Source of the DNA: Lysobacter sp. M2-1
GTDB lineage: Bacteria > Pseudomonadota > Gammaproteobacteria > Xanthomonadales > Xanthomonadaceae
DNA: 64,000 bases
Reading direction: 5' to 3'
Assembly: GCF_022662495.1 (NCBI RefSeq)
Contig: NZ_JAKPBU010000011.1
Location: 186,001-250,000, forward strand
Each line of letters opens with the position of its first letter. Positions within the stretch are counted from its first letter, which is position 1. Made by a program: the position numbers and the translations under genes. The notes beneath the pieces were generated by a model. It ran no database searches and was not told the DNA's origin. It saw nothing but the letters and a program-made list of their open reading frames with translations. Positions 35,520-43,001 of this stretch are shown in pieces.

Positions 35520-37433
35520 ATGATCGACTCCACCCGCTATCCCCGGCTGTCGCGTATCGACAGCCCCGCCGACCTGCGCACCTTCGACGAGGCCGAATTG
35601 CCGGCGGTCGCCGAAGAACTGCGTGCGTATCTGATCGAGTCGGTCGGAAAGTCGGGTGGTCATTTCGGTGCCGGGCTGGGTGTGATCGAACTCACCACTG
35701 CCCTGCACTACCTGTACCGCACGCCGGAGGATCGCATCGTCTGGGATGTCGGCCATCAATGCTATCCGCACAAGATCCTGACCGGTCGCCGCGACAGCAT
35801 CCACACGGTCAAGCAGAAGGACGGGGTGGCGCCGTTCCCGAAGCGCGAGGAAAGCGATTACGACACCTTCGGCGTGGGCCACTCATCGACCTCGATTTCG
35901 GCGGCATTGGGCATGGCCATCGCCAACGCGCGCGCAGGCAACGACCGCCGCGTGGTCGCGGTGATCGGTGATGGTGCGATGACCGCCGGCATGGCCTATG
36001 AGGCGCTCAACCACGCCGGCGGCATGGATCCCGAACCCAGCCTGCTGGTGATCCTCAACGACAACCGCATGTCGATCAGCGAGAACGTCGGCGGCATGAC
36101 CCGGATGCTCGGGCGCGTGACCGGCAGCCGCACCCTTAACGCGCTGCGCGAGGGCGGCAAGAAGATCCTCGGGGACAAGCGCAGCAGCGGCACTGCGCGC
36201 TTCGTGCGCCGCTGGGAGGAGCACTGGAAGGGCATGTTCGTGCCCTCCACCCTGTTCGAGGAGATGGGCTTCCACTACACCGGGCCGATCGACGGGCACG
36301 ACGTCCACGCGCTGGTGGCCACGCTCAAGACCCTGCAGAAGCTCAAGGGTCCGCAGCTGCTGCACGTGATCACCACCAAGGGCAAGGGATACGAGCTCGC
36401 CGAAGACGACCAGATCGGCTATCACGCCGTGTCCCCGTTCGATCCGTCGCAGGGCGTCGTGGCGAAGGCGGGCGCGAAGAAACCGACCTATACCGACGTG
36501 TTCGGGGACTGGCTCTGCGACATGGCCGCAGCCGACGACAGACTGCTCGGCATCACCCCGGCGATGCGCGAAGGCTCCGGGCTGGTGCGCTTCAGCAGGG
36601 AATATCCGGATCGCTATTTCGACGTCGCCATCGCCGAACAACATGCGGTCACGCTCGCCGCCGGCATGGCCTGCGAAGGCGCCAAGCCGGTGGTCGCGAT
36701 CTATTCGACGTTCCTGCAACGTGGCTACGACCAGCTGGTCCACGACGTTGCGATCCAGAAACTGGACGTGCTGTTCGCGATCGACCGTGGTGGCGTCGTC
36801 GGCCCGGATGGCGCCACCCACGCCGGCAACCTCGACCTGTCCTATCTGCGCTGCGTGCCGAACATGGTCGTGATGGCGCCCGCGGACGAGAACGAATGCC
36901 GGCAGATGCTCAGCACCGGCTTCGCGCATGCCGGTCCGGCCGCGGTGCGCTATCCACGCGGCACCGGCCCGGGTGTTGCCGTGCGGGCCGATCTGGACAC
37001 GCTGCCCATCGGCCAGGCGGAGCTTCGCCGCCGCGGTTCGCGCATCGCGCTGCTCGCGTTCGGCGCGATCGTGCCGGCCGCCGAACAGGTGGGCGAGGAA
37101 TTTGGCCTGACCGTCGTCAACATGCGCTTCGTCAAGCCGTTGGACCGCGCGCTGATCCTGGAACTGGCGCAGAGCCACGAAGGCTTCGTCACCCTTGAAG
37201 ACAATGTCGTGATGGGCGGCGCCGGTTCCGCGGTGGCGGAACTGTTGGCTGCGGAGAACATCTCCATGCCGATCCTGCACCTGGGGCTGCCAGACGAATT
37301 TCAGCACCATGCGAGCCGCGAGGACCTGCTCAGCGAAGCCGGACTCGACACCGACGGCATCCGCGCCGCGGTACAGGCTCGCTGGCCGGACCTGCTGGCG
37401 CCGCGGACGCCCCTTTCAGCCGCTGCGGGATAA
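35520..37433 (+). CDS. dxs: 1-deoxy-D-xylulose-5-phosphate synthase
   Basis: A 637-residue thiamin-diphosphate enzyme for the first step of the MEP isoprenoid pathway (pyruvate + glyceraldehyde-3-phosphate to DXP). Motifs: [32 protein letters not shown], the ThDP/Mg motif [18 protein letters not shown] with NDNRMSIS, and [15 protein letters not shown] with catalytic Glu. The ATG at 35520 gives the usual N-terminus [13 protein letters not shown]. No ribosome site is obvious. Confidence 0.97.
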
Positions 37434-37453
37434 ACGGCCGCGTCGCAGGGACC

Positions 37454-38125
37454 ATGTTCCAGCGCATCGCCAACGGACGGACCGATCTGGTCTTCGACCA
37501 CGTCGCACACGGTGGCCTCGCCACCGCCGCGGATGCGGATGGGGTATCGCTGATCCGCTGGTGCGCCTACTACGGCGACGTGTCCGCGATCCGGCACCTG
37601 CTCGAACATGGCGAGTCGCTGGCCTCGCTCGGGGACAACCACGACCTCAACGGCGCGGCGTTCCACGGCCACTGGCAGCTATGCCAGTTCCTTCTGGAGC
37701 ACGGTGCCGACCCCAACCGGCCCTTGCCCGATACCGGCGAGACGCCGTTGCATGCGGTGTTGGCGAACGACGACCGCGTCCGCTACGACCTGGCGATGGA
37801 GGTGCTGCTGGCCCATGGCGCCGATTCCAATCGGGCGACCCGGCCACATGCCGAAACCGGTGCTTTCATGCGTGATTGCCGCACCCGTGGCGAAACGCCG
37901 TTGCATCGCGCTGCTGCGTTCGGTGGCGAGCGCACCATCCGCCTGCTGCTCGACGCAGGCGCGGCGCTGGACGCGAAGGATGCATACGGAGACTCGCCGC
38001 TGGCGTGGGCCAGCTGGCATCGCCGCCCACGCGCGATCCTGCGGCTGCTTTGCTACGGCACCTTCCGCATTCCCGGCCACGACGCCGACCTGCGCGCGCA
38101 CCTGCTGGGCAAGCCTCACGACTGA
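37454..38125 (+). CDS. Ankyrin-repeat protein
   Basis: A 223-residue protein of about five ankyrin repeats: GVSLIRWCAYYGDVSAIRHL, NGAAFHGHWQLCQFLLEHGA, GETPLHAVLANDDRV, GETPLHRAAAFGGERTIRLL and GDSPLAWASWHRRPRAILRL. The GADPN/GADSN turns are canonical. No signal peptide; a cytoplasmic protein-binding adaptor. It starts 20 bp after the dxs stop, so it is probably co-transcribed with dxs, but no link in function is evident. Confidence 0.92.
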   Translation: MFQRIANGRTDLVFDHVAHGGLATAADADGVSLIRWCAYYGDVSAIRHLLEHGESLASLGDNHDLNGAAFHGHWQLCQFLLEHGADPNRPLPDTGETPLHAVLANDDRVRYDLAMEVLLAHGADSNRATRPHAETGAFMRDCRTRGETPLHRAAAFGGERTIRLLLDAGAALDAKDAYGDSPLAWASWHRRPRAILRLLCYGTFRIPGHDADLRAHLLGKPHD

Positions 38126-38197
38126 GGTCTCCAGCCTGGCGACGCCGGGGTCTCGGCACGAGCCACCGGACTCGTCAGACCCGGGGTGCGGGCGGTG

Positions 38198-38227
38198 CTG
38201 ATATCGCAAGATCGCCTTCGCTATAGT
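38198..38227 (+). promoter_or_regulatory. Promoter of the hydroxylase-ketosynthase operon
   Basis: CTGATA (38198-38203), an 18-bp spacer and TATAGT (38222-38227) resemble a sigma-70 promoter. A nested hairpin (CCGGGGTCT near 38146 with AGACCCGGG near 38178) before it may end the dxs/ankyrin transcript. Confidence 0.5.
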
Positions 38228-38259
38228 GCGTGCGACCGCAAACGAGCAGGGAACGTCAG

Positions 38260-38994
38260 GTGGGCGAGTGGTTCGTCTCGCGCAACGCATGGCAGGTCAT
38301 GACGTCAGGAACCGCCTACTTCGCCGTGCTGTATTTCGCGACGGCACTGGCGGCCCTGTGGCTGACGCGCGTGGCGCTGCCGCGCATCGGCTTCGGGCGG
38401 ACACTCGATCCGCGTGAGCTGCCCGCGGACCAGTACCGCCGCGAGATTGCACAGGCATGCGTTTCGATCTTGATCTTCGGTGCCGGGGTGGTGTTCCCCT
38501 GGGCCATCCTGAAGCTGGGCTGGGCGAGTCTGACGCCGGATCCGTCGGCGGTGCGGGTCGCTGCCGAGGTCGCGGCACTGTTCCTCTGGAACGAGCTGCA
38601 CTTCTATGCCTGCCACCGCCTGCTCCACACACGGGTACTGCGACGGTTCCATGCCGATCACCACCGCTCGCACGTTCCCACGCCGTTCTCGACCTACGCC
38701 TTCCATCCGGTCGAGGCGCTGCTGCTCGGCAGCGTGCCGCTGGTGCCGATGCTGCTGCACGATTTCAGCTTCGAGGCGCTGCTGTGCCTCCCGGTGCTGA
38801 GCATCCTGCTCAACGTCCTGGGTCACGCCAACTACGAGCTCAGCCGCAGCGCGCCCGCGCGCGGGCTGCTCGGCGCCAGCCGCCGCCATGCCCTGCACCA
38901 CGCGCGCTACCACGGCAACTACGGGTTCCTGCTGCCGGTGTTCGACCGGCTTTCGGGCACTCAAATCGACGGCGACGCGGCGCCGCATCGCTGA
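38260..38994 (+). CDS. Fatty acid hydroxylase superfamily (sterol desaturase-like) protein
   Basis: A 244-residue integral membrane protein of the diiron fatty acid hydroxylase/sterol desaturase superfamily. Three to four membrane helices are visible. The His clusters are intact: HFYACH (H114, H119), HADHH (H131, H134, H135) with H138, and HALHH (H210, H213, H214) plus H218. They would bind two irons for O2-dependent hydroxylation or desaturation of a lipid. GTG at 38260 is preferred as it follows AGCAGGGAA; an in-frame GTG at 38230 is the alternative. Thirty-six bp separate it from the ketosynthase fusion gene. Confidence 0.87.
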   Translation: MGEWFVSRNAWQVMTSGTAYFAVLYFATALAALWLTRVALPRIGFGRTLDPRELPADQYRREIAQACVSILIFGAGVVFPWAILKLGWASLTPDPSAVRVAAEVAALFLWNELHFYACHRLLHTRVLRRFHADHHRSHVPTPFSTYAFHPVEALLLGSVPLVPMLLHDFSFEALLCLPVLSILLNVLGHANYELSRSAPARGLLGASRRHALHHARYHGNYGFLLPVFDRLSGTQIDGDAAPHR

Positions 38995-39030
38995 CGCCGG
39001 CTCGACCCCTTCCCCCTCGCAGGACGCTGC

Positions 39031-40938
39031 ATGCCACTCCGCTTCGAACGCACCTGGATCCAGGGCACCGGCCGATTCCTGCCCGGCCCGCCCGTCGACA
39101 ACGACGGCATGGATGCCTACATCGCCCCGTTGACGCGTCTTTCCGGTCGCATCAAGCGCCGGATCCTGGCGGAAAACGGGATCCGCGCACGCCATTACGC
39201 GATCGATCCCGAAGGCCGCACCGTGCATGCCTGCTCCGCCATGGCCGCCAACGCCATCGCCGACTGCCTGGCCGATGCCCGCCTTCGTATCGACGAGATC
39301 GGCCTGCTCGCCTGCGGCACTTCGGGCGGCGATGCGCTGATGCCCGGCTTCGCCAGCATGGTGCTCGGGCAGATGTCGGCGCCGCCGATGCAGACCTTCT
39401 CCAGCCACGGGATCTGCGCCTCCGGCGTCGGCGCCTGGGAAGCGGCCGCGGCGTCGGTCGAACTGGGTTCGCATGCGCATGCGCTGGTGGCCGCGGCGGA
39501 GATGCCTTCGCGCCTGTTCAAGCGCTCGCGCTACGCGGCACGCGGCTACGATGCCGATTTCGATGCGCACTTCCTGCGCTGGATGCTGTCCGACGGCGCC
39601 GGTTCGCTGCTGCTGACGTCCTCGCCGCAGTCGCGCGCCGGGGTGCGGCTGCGCCTGCGTTTCATGCACCAGCGCTCGTTCTCCGGCGACTACCCCGTGT
39701 GCATGCAGCTGGGGCTGACGCCGGACCGTTCGCGCTCGCATCTGGACTACGCATCGTGGCAGGAAGCGGAGGCCGACGGCGCGCTGTTCCTGCGCCAGGA
39801 CATCCGTCTGCTGCCGCACCTGTTCGATGTCGGGATCCATGAGTACGCGCAGCTGGCGAAGGATGGATGGCTGGAGCCGGAGCGGGTCGATCATTTCCTC
39901 TGCCATTACTCGTCCGAAAAGTTCGCACCGGTGGTCGACGAGCTGATGCACAAAGCCGGGCTGTCGATCCCCCGCGAGCGCTGGTACAGCAACCTCACCA
40001 CACGCGGCAACACGGGTGCGGCTTCGATCTTCATCATGCTCGACGAGTTCCTGCGCACTCGCCAGGTGGCACCAGGCCAGCAGATCCTGTGCTTCATCCC
40101 GGAATCGGGACGGTTCACCGTGGCGTTTGCACTGATCGAAGTGGAAGCAGCGGATGTCCCCGGCGAATCCTTCTCCTTCCGTCCTGCCGGGATTCCGATG
40201 CCGGCTGCTGACGACGATGTCATCGCGCCGCCGCACGACCCCGCCGATGCTCCCGAAGCGCTCCGTCATCTGCTCGCGGAGCTGGCCGCGGTATGGCATT
40301 CCTACCGGTCCCGCGCCTGGCGTACGCCGCTGATCCGCAAGCTGCGCGAGCGGCGCTTCGATCAGGCGGACTATGTACGATGGATGGGGCACTGGATCCC
40401 GCAGGTGCGCGAGGGCAGCAAGTGGATGCGCGAAGGCGCGGCGTCTGTCCTTCCGCCCTACGACGCCCTGCGCGCGCTGATCGAAACCCATGCCGGCGAC
40501 GAGCAGGACGATTACATGATCCTGTTCGAGGATTACCGGAAAGCCGGCGGATGCGTCGCGGACATCGACCTGCTGCGCCGCAATCCCGGCGGCGAAGCGC
40601 TGAACAGCTACCTGCACGCGCTGGCGGCCACCCCGAACCCGCTCGGCCTGCTCGGCGCCATCTACATCATCGAGGGGACCGGCCAGCGCATCATCCCTGC
40701 CCTGCTGCCGCTGATGAAGGTCAGCCTGACCGGCGCTGCAGATGGCCTGCCCGCGGATGCGTTCCGCTTTCTCGAGTACCACGGCGCCAACGACGAGCAC
40801 CACCTGCTGCGCTGGCTGCGGGCGGTCGAGATCGTGCTGGACCACGATGCCGACGGCGCAGGCGCGCGTGCGATCATCGACACCGCCCGGCGCACCGCGG
40901 AGCTCTACCTGATGCAGTTCGAACACATCACCCCATGA
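39031..40938 (+). CDS. FabH-like ketosynthase III fused to heme-oxygenase-like diiron domain
   Basis: A 635-residue fusion. Residues 1-375 are a 3-oxoacyl-ACP synthase III-like thiolase fold with an intact Cys-His-Asn triad: C129 (SSHGICASGVG), H292 (HFLCHYSSEKF) and N327 (TTRGNTGAASIF); LSDGAGSLLL matches the FabH DGAG loop. Residues about 405-635 are all-helical and resemble heme-oxygenase-like diiron oxidases (HDO): E548 (IYIIEGTG) and the H584-x3-D588-x2-H591 motif, which equals the pattern of CADD; E491/D494 may be further ligands. It probably condenses an acyl thioester and couples that to an O2-dependent step. Product unknown. Confidence 0.8.
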   Translation: MPLRFERTWIQGTGRFLPGPPVDNDGMDAYIAPLTRLSGRIKRRILAENGIRARHYAIDPEGRTVHACSAMAANAIADCLADARLRIDEIGLLACGTSGGDALMPGFASMVLGQMSAPPMQTFSSHGICASGVGAWEAAAASVELGSHAHALVAAAEMPSRLFKRSRYAARGYDADFDAHFLRWMLSDGAGSLLLTSSPQSRAGVRLRLRFMHQRSFSGDYPVCMQLGLTPDRSRSHLDYASWQEAEADGALFLRQDIRLLPHLFDVGIHEYAQLAKDGWLEPERVDHFLCHYSSEKFAPVVDELMHKAGLSIPRERWYSNLTTRGNTGAASIFIMLDEFLRTRQVAPGQQILCFIPESGRFTVAFALIEVEAADVPGESFSFRPAGIPMPAADDDVIAPPHDPADAPEALRHLLAELAAVWHSYRSRAWRTPLIRKLRERRFDQADYVRWMGHWIPQVREGSKWMREGAASVLPPYDALRALIETHAGDEQDDYMILFEDYRKAGGCVADIDLLRRNPGGEALNSYLHALAATPNPLGLLGAIYIIEGTGQRIIPALLPLMKVSLTGAADGLPADAFRFLEYHGANDEHHLLRWLRAVEIVLDHDADGAGARAIIDTARRTAELYLMQFEHITP

Positions 40939-41045
40939 CGCCCGGCCGCCTTGCAAGGCGCCGCACATCGGAACGTGCCTGCGCCAGGCCGAGCCGGGTG
41001 CCCCGATGCCGTCGCGACCTCACGGTCGAATCCTGACAGCCCGCC

Positions 41046-41927
41046 ATGAAACATACGCCCGACTTCCTCGAACAGGCCTACGACCCGCGCGATCCCAGCC
41101 CCTGGCTTGCGCTCTACCTCGACCGGAGCACGCCGCTGGACGAGGAGGTGAAGCGTGCCTGGCTGGCGGATTCCAGCTCGCGCTCGCGCCAGTTCGTGCT
41201 GCCGTTCGTGCGCCCGTTCGCGCGCACGCTGATCGTGCTGTTCCAGGTGGTCAAGACGTTCACGCCGCGCCGCTGGGCGTTCTCGCGCCAGCTGCACCGA
41301 CTGCTGGCCTGGGGCATGGAGAACTTCATCCGGCCCGAAGCGAACTGGCTGATCCTGCGCCACTTCCATCTGGGCTCGCAGGTGCTCGCATTCATCGCCC
41401 GCAACTCCGGCACCGACACCGCGACCAATCCGCTCAAGCCGCTCAGGATCGAAGACGTGCGCGAGGACATGTTCCTGGTCCACGACCTCAACCTCTACAA
41501 CTTCGTTATCCGCCTCAACCAGAACCTGCGCGAATCCGGGCGCAGCCTGGAGCACGTGCCCGCGCCGGACCTGTCGATGATCGTGCGCCCATCACTGGAA
41601 CTCGCCGACATGCCGCGGCGCCGGCGCAATTTCCTCGATCTGCAAAGCTCGATCGAGCTGTTCACCCCGATCTACCAGCTGCTGCTGACCGACAGCGATT
41701 TCTGGCGGGCGACCAATTCGCTGCAGCTGGACGAAACCATCGGCCTGTACTCGGCCACCATCCTCGACGCGCGCGAGCATCTGATCCTGCTCAACAACCG
41801 GCATCCGCTCGTGCCCATGTCCACCCTGCGCGCCGGTTTTCGCCTGACCCTGCATGGCCTGTCGACCGAGATGCTGCATGCCTTCCTGATGGGCAAGAAG
41901 GCGGCGATGCAGGTCTCCGCGCCGTAG
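41046..41927 (+). CDS. Unknown protein encoded with ketosynthase fusion
   Basis: A 293-residue helical protein that I do not recognise beyond a conserved-looking Xanthomonadaceae hypothetical. No signal peptide; one hydrophobic segment (VRPFARTLIVLFQVVKTF, about 55-72) suggests membrane association. Pattern-rich parts include ANWLILRHFHLGSQVLAFIA (His pair at about 106-108), EDMFLVHDLNLYNFVIRL and QLDETIGLYSATILDAREHL, so an additional His/Glu metal site is possible but unproven. It follows the fusion gene by 107 bp on the same strand; its TAG lies in a GTAGGAGCG REP-like motif. Confidence 0.75.
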   Translation: MKHTPDFLEQAYDPRDPSPWLALYLDRSTPLDEEVKRAWLADSSSRSRQFVLPFVRPFARTLIVLFQVVKTFTPRRWAFSRQLHRLLAWGMENFIRPEANWLILRHFHLGSQVLAFIARNSGTDTATNPLKPLRIEDVREDMFLVHDLNLYNFVIRLNQNLRESGRSLEHVPAPDLSMIVRPSLELADMPRRRRNFLDLQSSIELFTPIYQLLLTDSDFWRATNSLQLDETIGLYSATILDAREHLILLNNRHPLVPMSTLRAGFRLTLHGLSTEMLHAFLMGKKAAMQVSAP

Positions 41928-41939
41928 GAGCGCTGCTGG

Positions 41940-43001
41940 TCAGGGCGCTTCGACCGTATAACCCTTGGCCTCGAGCCGGGCGAGATAGCCATCGCTCTTC
42001 AGCAGCTCGGCGATCGGCAGCGTGGCGAAGGTCGTGTGATTGCGCATCAGCGCGGACTCCGCCGCCGCGAGCCATTTGTTCTGCATCTGTCCGGCCATGT
42101 CGGCCACGCCATGCTTGCGTGCGAGCGCGGCGCTGCTGAAGGCCGCCGAACAGGTCGTGAACTGGTTGCCGTAAGGCAGTTCGCGCAGGGTCTGGATGTC
42201 GCCGATGGCCCAGGCGTTGGCGCGCGCGACCATGGTGCCCAGGTCCGTTTCTATCCGGTCCATGGTCTTGCCGAAACAGTCCAGGTCTTCGAGCGACGTG
42301 TTCGCGAATTCCTTCAGCGCCTGCCTGGGCTGACTGATGGTGATCATGAGTTTGGGGTTGCTGACCTTCACACCGTGGCGCTTCGCGAGCTTCGTGACCG
42401 TCGGCCCGATCAGTCCACGCGCACTCATGCCCGACTTGCGAATCGCCTTGTCGTACAACTCCAACGCCGCGAACACCGGCCGCCATTGCTCGATGCCGCG
42501 ATCGCCGCCGATGTACCTGGCCTTGAGCACCTGCCAGCGGGCGTACTGCTCCGGGGTGACCACGTCCTGCAGGCGCTTGCCGTCCGGATTGCGCCGCGCC
42601 TTGAGCGCACTCGGGAGCAGAACGAGGTTGCCGAAGAAACCGCGATCGGTCTTGATCTCGACCGAAGGCGAGAACAGCACTTCCTGCGATTGCGAAATCG
42701 CCTTCTCGATCGCGCCAGAGTCCCACTGCATTCCGCGCGGCAGCGGCGAGAGCGTGCCGAGCACCCACATCACATGGCCGCCCTTGCTGACCCGCCACAG
42801 CCCGGGACCGGGCTGCACGCCGGTGACAACGACGGCCTCCAGGTCACGGATCGGAATTTCGGGCGCGCCTGCGGTCGGGGTCGCTATCGGCGGTGCGGCG
42901 GGCGCGGGTGCCGGGTCCTGCGCGGAGGCGGTCGCGGCGATCCCGAGCGCAAGGACGAGCAGCAGCAGCAAGGGACGGCGTAGGGCCATGGCATTCAACA
43001 C
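41940..43001 (-). CDS. TraB/GumN family protein with altered motif
   Basis: A 353-residue secreted protein of the TraB/GumN (TIKI-like) family. A signal peptide (PLLLLLVLALGIAATASAQ) is followed by a Pro-rich linker. The family signature normally reads G-T/S-I/L-H; here it is VMWVLGTLSPLPRGM, with Ser in place of the metal-binding His. The rest (RYIGGDRGIEQWRPVFAAL, ANTSLEDLDCFGKTMDRIE) fits the family. It may thus be catalytically inactive or use another ligand. The start is 43001 or the Met at 42989. Confidence 0.85.
   Translation of the reverse strand: MLNAMALRRPLLLLLVLALGIAATASAQDPAPAPAAPPIATPTAGAPEIPIRDLEAVVVTGVQPGPGLWRVSKGGHVMWVLGTLSPLPRGMQWDSGAIEKAISQSQEVLFSPSVEIKTDRGFFGNLVLLPSALKARRNPDGKRLQDVVTPEQYARWQVLKARYIGGDRGIEQWRPVFAALELYDKAIRKSGMSARGLIGPTVTKLAKRHGVKVSNPKLMITISQPRQALKEFANTSLEDLDCFGKTMDRIETDLGTMVARANAWAIGDIQTLRELPYGNQFTTCSAAFSSAALARKHGVADMAGQMQNKWLAAAESALMRNHTTFATLPIAELLKSDGYLARLEAKGYTVEAP

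Follow-up and report, generated by a model that had tools for sequence, protein, structure and literature searches.

Condensing enzymes of the StlD/DarB type join two acyl chains to form 1,3-cyclohexanediones. Cyclohexanediones are intermediates of the dialkylresorcinol pathway (PMC4414361), and the annotation of one published DAR cluster lists darB as a "DAR-cyclase" and darA as a "DAR-aromatase" (PMC3949708). We analyzed a 64,000-nt stretch of Lysobacter sp. M2-1 (NZ_JAKPBU010000011.1, positions 186,001–250,000; hereafter the window, within which all coordinates below are counted) and studied an operon in which a ketosynthase (KS) of this kind is fused to a heme-oxygenase-like (HDO) domain. 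Three open reading frames on the forward strand, spaced by 36 and 107 bp, encode a PF04116 membrane hydroxylase, the 635-aa KS-HDO fusion (39031–40938, ATG start), and a 293-aa protein of the DUF6999 family. We propose that the operon encodes an oxidative condensation pathway, in which a DarB-like condensation is followed by O2-dependent oxidation by the fused HDO domain, DUF6999 is obligatory, and membrane enzymes tailor a lipid-like product; we give this reading an even chance of being correct.

The KS domain comprises residues 1–372 of the fusion (39031–40146, forward strand) and was assigned using its fold, phmmer searches, NCBIfam models, and the conservation of the catalytic triad. Its nearest relative was StlD (phmmer 2e-62; fold Z 44.4 over 360 aligned residues at 33% identity), and the identity to StlD/DarB proteins was approximately 33–39%. 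The fusion also matched the KS C-terminal domain PF08541 (1.9e-9). The triad C129, H292, and N327 was invariant in 99 of 99 distinct fusions, and the catalytic His aligned with H302 of StlD, the residue mutated in 5GK2. An earlier annotation of the same DNA made from its letters (the sequence-only reading) had described the ketosynthase as FabH-like; given these matches and the NCBIfam StlD/DarB model (PRK06816), which scores the fusion at 315 bits, the description should read StlD/DarB-like. A housekeeping role of the FabH type was rejected, as the model score, phmmer, fold, and tree all group the KS with StlD/DarB.

We inferred a tree for 52 KS domains, in which long branches were flagged and the exact place of the unfused KSs is unsure. 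The fused and unfused HDO-associated KSs split from 15 KSs without HDO with a support of 99.9, and the fused KSs were found on one side of a branch with a support of 100. The KS is best described as a sister lineage of StlD/DarB and not as a FabH. It resembles StlD/DarB in its KS fold, in the Cys-His-Asn triad, and in being a single ketosynthase III (KSIII)-type domain of the kind that condenses fatty-acid-derived thioesters, but differs in scoring below the model cut-off, in falling on the other side of the tree, in being fused or adjacent to an HDO, and in the constant presence of DUF6999. Because the order of KS, HDO, and DUF6999 is the same in the fused and unfused forms, the data suggest a single fusion of neighboring KS and HDO genes. 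The KSIII and the HDO oxidase make up a stable unit, first as adjacent genes and then as one polypeptide. Two subtypes (approximately 57% and 70–82% identity) were found inside the same genera of the window's family, which suggests horizontal transfer. In one locus, from Verticiella sp. GG226 (L156:8002-9122), the KS matches were split over two reading frames meeting near residue 248, reflecting either a frameshift or a sequencing error.

The next-best fold matches of the KS were OleA structures (Z ~35, at best 35.9, with approximately 20% identity), and these open an alternative that we regard as unlikely. In head-to-head fashion, the KS would couple two acyl-CoAs to a beta-keto acid, from which the HDO would oxidatively remove the carboxylate, in the manner of UndA, an HDO decarboxylating fatty acids (PMC13108848, PMC11363339), yielding a ketone, an alkene, or a related hydrocarbon. 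StlD is, however, far closer to the KS (Z 44.4 versus 35.9 and 33 versus approximately 20% identity); no OleB/C/D-type genes were recognized beside the operon, although no model search was aimed at them; and the requirement for DUF6999 and the membrane hydroxylase is left unexplained.

In the StlD/DarB-like reading, the step following the condensation falls to the second half of the fusion. The two halves are separated by a variable linker (residues 373–400, 40147–40230, forward strand) with gappy alignment columns and a mean pLDDT of 30 for residues 381–390 and 44 for residues 391–400. The HDO domain (residues 401–635, 40231–40938, forward strand) is helical and well predicted in the structure model of the fusion, and its match to PF14518 (1.8e-5, 25.1 bits) is under the gathering cut-off of 28.9. 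Three unfused orthologues exceeded that cut-off with 33.7–41.2 bits, one Pseudoalteromonas orthologue had no PF14518 match, and a profile of 12 HDO sequences matched 3DDE, a structure with the heme-oxygenase-like fold, with an E-value of 1.3e-12. The fusion of a ketosynthase to a heme-oxygenase-like domain, as first read from the DNA, is supported by the latter match and by the scores of the unfused orthologues. Residues H487, E491, D494, E548, H584, D588, and H591 were invariant in 99 of 99 distinct fusions as well as in three unfused orthologues at 30–37% identity.

The last four ligand positions of the domain are as expected, with E548 followed by H584-x3-D588-x2-H591 in the fused and unfused forms alike. 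They parallel E140 and H172-x3-E176-x2-H179 of AetD; the first pair differs, as the KS-HDO family has E491-x2-D494 in place of D76-x2-H79 of AetD (PMC10654658) and H487 one turn earlier, and Asp494 occupies the position of a His in 3DDE. The ligand order E-H-X-H-D/E-H is found in approximately 85% of the analyzed HDO groups (PMC11363339), and the KS-HDO family, by its residues, appears to fall outside it. We infer that a dimetal site forms in the domain. The profile match to 3DDE links the domain to UndA, CADD, SznF, AetD, and BesC, but here the HDO is fused to a ketosynthase and the expected substrate is the KS product.

Some enzymes with the KSIII fold have transferase activity, and the KS could be a noncondensing acyltransferase that attaches an acyl chain to an amino acid or a small molecule, with subsequent oxidation by the HDO. 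For most characterized HDOs, the substrates are small acids or amino acids (PMC13108848, PMC13185094), in line with such a substrate. The condensing triad C129-H292-N327 is, however, kept in 99 of 99 fusions, by fold and tree the KS belongs with the condensing StlD/DarB enzymes, and we consider acyl transfer improbable, more so than the OleA-like route.

The condensation-and-oxidation reading gains a third component from the distribution of the genes across genomes. KS-HDO was found in 34 of 395 and DUF6999 in 34 of 390 genomes of the window's family, covering 13 of its 54 genera, and the two lists of genomes were identical. The probability of two sets of 34 genomes matching by chance is negligible, 10^-49 under the assumption of independent genomes, although relatives are not independent. 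In six alpha- and gammaproteobacterial genomes, KS, HDO, and DUF6999 were three separate genes, adjacent and in this order; an annotated Pseudoalteromonas is arranged in the same way, while in three alphaproteobacterial loci (L183, L192, and L193) with an adjacent KS the intervening HDO was left uncalled by a simple gene finder. Outside the family, DUF6999 adjoined KS-HDO or the separate KS and HDO genes at almost every locus whose surroundings were read. As the flanking genes vary from genus to genus, this linkage does not merely reflect an inherited neighborhood. The operon parts are not a chance assemblage but are kept across Alpha-, Beta-, and Gammaproteobacteria.

Among 80 named loci, 66 contained the hydroxylase, a fatty-acid desaturase, KS-HDO, and DUF6999; seven, like the window, lacked the desaturase; two lacked the hydroxylase; and three had KS-HDO and DUF6999 only, one of these on a contig of just 3 kb from which the hydroxylase could be cut off. 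The two remaining loci, from two Variovorax genomes (L103 and L104), were exceptions in which the unit was split into one part with a PLD-family gene, the hydroxylase, and DUF6999 and another with the desaturase and KS-HDO (L174 and L175), every part being kept. The co-conserved trio is KS, HDO, and DUF6999. A lack of co-conservation in relatives would have refuted the sequence-only reading; KS, HDO, and DUF6999 are co-conserved, sharing the same 34 genomes, whereas the hydroxylase is an accessory gene outside the core that is absent from a number of loci. The patchy distribution among genomes is as expected of an optional metabolite pathway, and together with the lack of a catalase in the operon and the intact condensing enzyme fused to the HDO, it makes very improbable a protective system that acts in oxidative or desiccation stress and produces no metabolite, as described for the HDO-domain protein DtpC, which Acinetobacter requires along with KatE to tolerate desiccation (PMC13232832). 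A function in antiphage defense was rejected, as PADLOC gave no match.

The third core component, encoded at 41046–41927 on the forward strand with an ATG start, had been listed as a 293-residue protein of unknown kind; it is uncharacterized but has a family name, matching DUF6999 (PF22523) with 418 bits against a gathering cut-off of 27. We found nothing relevant on DUF6999 in the literature searched, most subscription journals lying outside that search. The structure model is all-helical (mean pLDDT 80.9), and neither Foldseek (best E 0.47) nor VIA-align (best Z 4.5) gave a confident fold match in the Protein Data Bank (PDB); as these values are at the level of unrelated helical bundles, they do not show the fold to be new. 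A profile search of the PDB found no sequence relative of known structure, and the possibility of a disguised HDO was rejected in a profile comparison with the HDO alignment (probability 0.2%). Among 22 diverse members, the invariant polar residues were D26, R48, R105, H106, N120, H146, D147, D198, N224, D229, H270, and E275; a metal site formed by the three His and several of the acids on different helices would be a guess from these positions. A single borderline hydrophobic segment, residues 51–69, would make membrane contact possible. In a genome scan, 527 stretches encoded a DUF6999 relative, and the best 80 of the 527 came from Lysobacter-type gammaproteobacteria and from common environmental and host-associated betaproteobacteria. 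A DUF6999 gene was also seen in a control genome, that of Caulobacter vibrioides, a laboratory species amenable to genetics.

Combining these observations, the KS would load an acyl thioester on Cys129 and use as its condensation partner a second acyl thioester of fatty-acid origin, probably a beta-keto one, to give a two-chain product of the cyclohexanedione or beta-keto type. The tethered HDO would then oxidize the condensation product with O2 and its dimetal site, most likely doing the job that the flavodoxin-like aromatase DarA does elsewhere. We searched for DarA-like proteins using as the query one from a DarB locus: two DarB control genomes matched, whereas seven KS-HDO genomes, that of the window among them, did not. 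The absence of DarA from these seven sets the locus apart from the dialkylresorcinol (darAB) pathway; on the simplest interpretation, postcondensation oxidation has passed to the HDO. DUF6999 accompanies the two as an obligatory partner and is probably a helical protein, associated with the membrane, that acts on the intermediate or handles it. From its family and position, the membrane hydroxylase may tailor the lipid-like product, joined in relatives by the fatty-acid desaturase.

Several observations weigh against this scheme. The KS score of 315 bits is below the curated PRK06816 cut-off of 450, as are those of unfused relatives (322, 398, and 414), while a DarB control reached 586, and the reaction may differ. 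The first ligand pair of the HDO is noncanonical, H487-x3-E491-x2-D494 instead of D/E-x2-H, and metal binding is not assured. The operon has no acyl carrier protein, aromatase, or ligase of its own, and the absence of the hydroxylase from several loci makes it dispensable for the core reaction. The substrate and product are predictions. The sequence-only reading had the operon making an oxidized fatty-acid-derived metabolite or a lipid head group; the coupling of an O2-dependent type of metal enzyme to a KSIII-type enzyme with intact catalytic residues is supported, as is its place in a conserved operon that usually includes further membrane diiron enzymes of the fatty-acid type. Nothing points to a head group, and the KS lineage is more in keeping with a product made from two acyl chains joined by condensation.

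In the literature searched, which omits most subscription papers, we found no published pathway with the set of KS, HDO, and DUF6999, nor its product; the sequence-only reading likewise knew of no assigned product for its trio. The new elements are the StlD/DarB-like condensing enzyme, whose follow-up oxidation an attached HDO probably carries out, and the obligatory DUF6999. The pathway is widespread yet apparently without an assigned product; it places DUF6999 in a functional context for the first time and hints at a new oxidation step following DarB-type condensation. Doubtful in our view is the fullest form of the proposal, a novel type of pathway for lipids or secondary metabolites with a DarB-like condensing enzyme and an O2-dependent oxidase in one polypeptide, the HDO in place of a flavin aromatase, DUF6999 as a new helical metalloenzyme, and nearly all steps carried out by metal-dependent oxidases.

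The accessory hydroxylase, a 244-aa protein of the membrane fatty-acid-hydroxylase superfamily (38260–38994, forward strand), had been recognized from its His clusters and was borne out by a PF04116 match at 1.1e-25, by three His boxes (HRLLH, HADHH, and HALHH), by its hydrophobic segments, and by its position upstream of KS-HDO in relatives. The start is likely the GTG at 38260, preceded by CAGGGAA; an upstream GTG at 38230 lies no further downstream than the point where transcription is expected to begin and is too near the promoter-like site. The hydroxylase and the desaturase of relatives resemble PF04116 hydroxylases such as OlsE and PF00487 desaturases in being His-box membrane diiron enzymes of the kind acting on lipids, but the hydroxylase here is accessory to the KS-HDO core and not to ornithine lipid genes. 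Ornithine lipid hydroxylation of the OlsE type was rejected, the score being 38.8 bits against an NCBIfam cut-off of 475. In most betaproteobacteria, the desaturase gene lies between the hydroxylase and the KS; most relatives have it as a fourth gene of the unit, whereas the window lacks it and a search elsewhere in the window genome found no match. In Variovorax, the PLD-family gene is located approximately 10 bp upstream of the hydroxylase, and in an alphaproteobacterium the gene that starts 22 bp downstream of DUF6999 (L159:5697-9098) encodes a 1133-aa MFS-acyltransferase-AMP-ligase protein. A lipid context is supported by these neighbors together with the hydroxylase and desaturase. At two loci with an unfused KS, from Pseudoalteromonas sp. 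THAF3 and a gammaproteobacterium (L194:5436-5993 and L160:12441-13007), a membrane protein of 185–188 aa is placed directly upstream of the KS, where the hydroxylase would be; it has conserved His, Asp, and Glu residues and no Pfam family. No confident Pfam family was found for the 185-aa and 634-aa neighbor proteins in Pseudoalteromonas.

The description of three genes on one strand behind a single promoter agreed with the open reading frames, their spacing, and the sole promoter-like site. That sigma-70-like site, CTGATA-18-TATAGT at 38198–38227 on the forward strand, is a consensus match only; it was the one such site within 37400–42000 (0.3 expected from shuffles) and begins precisely where the interval marked by the sequence-only reading starts. 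In several relatives, the end of KS-HDO and the start of DUF6999 share 4 bp, and the 107-bp gap between the two genes is therefore a local feature of the window. No terminator-like site was found on the forward strand within the gap, which contains a perfect 14-bp palindrome, CGCCTTGCAAGGCG, at 40947–40960.

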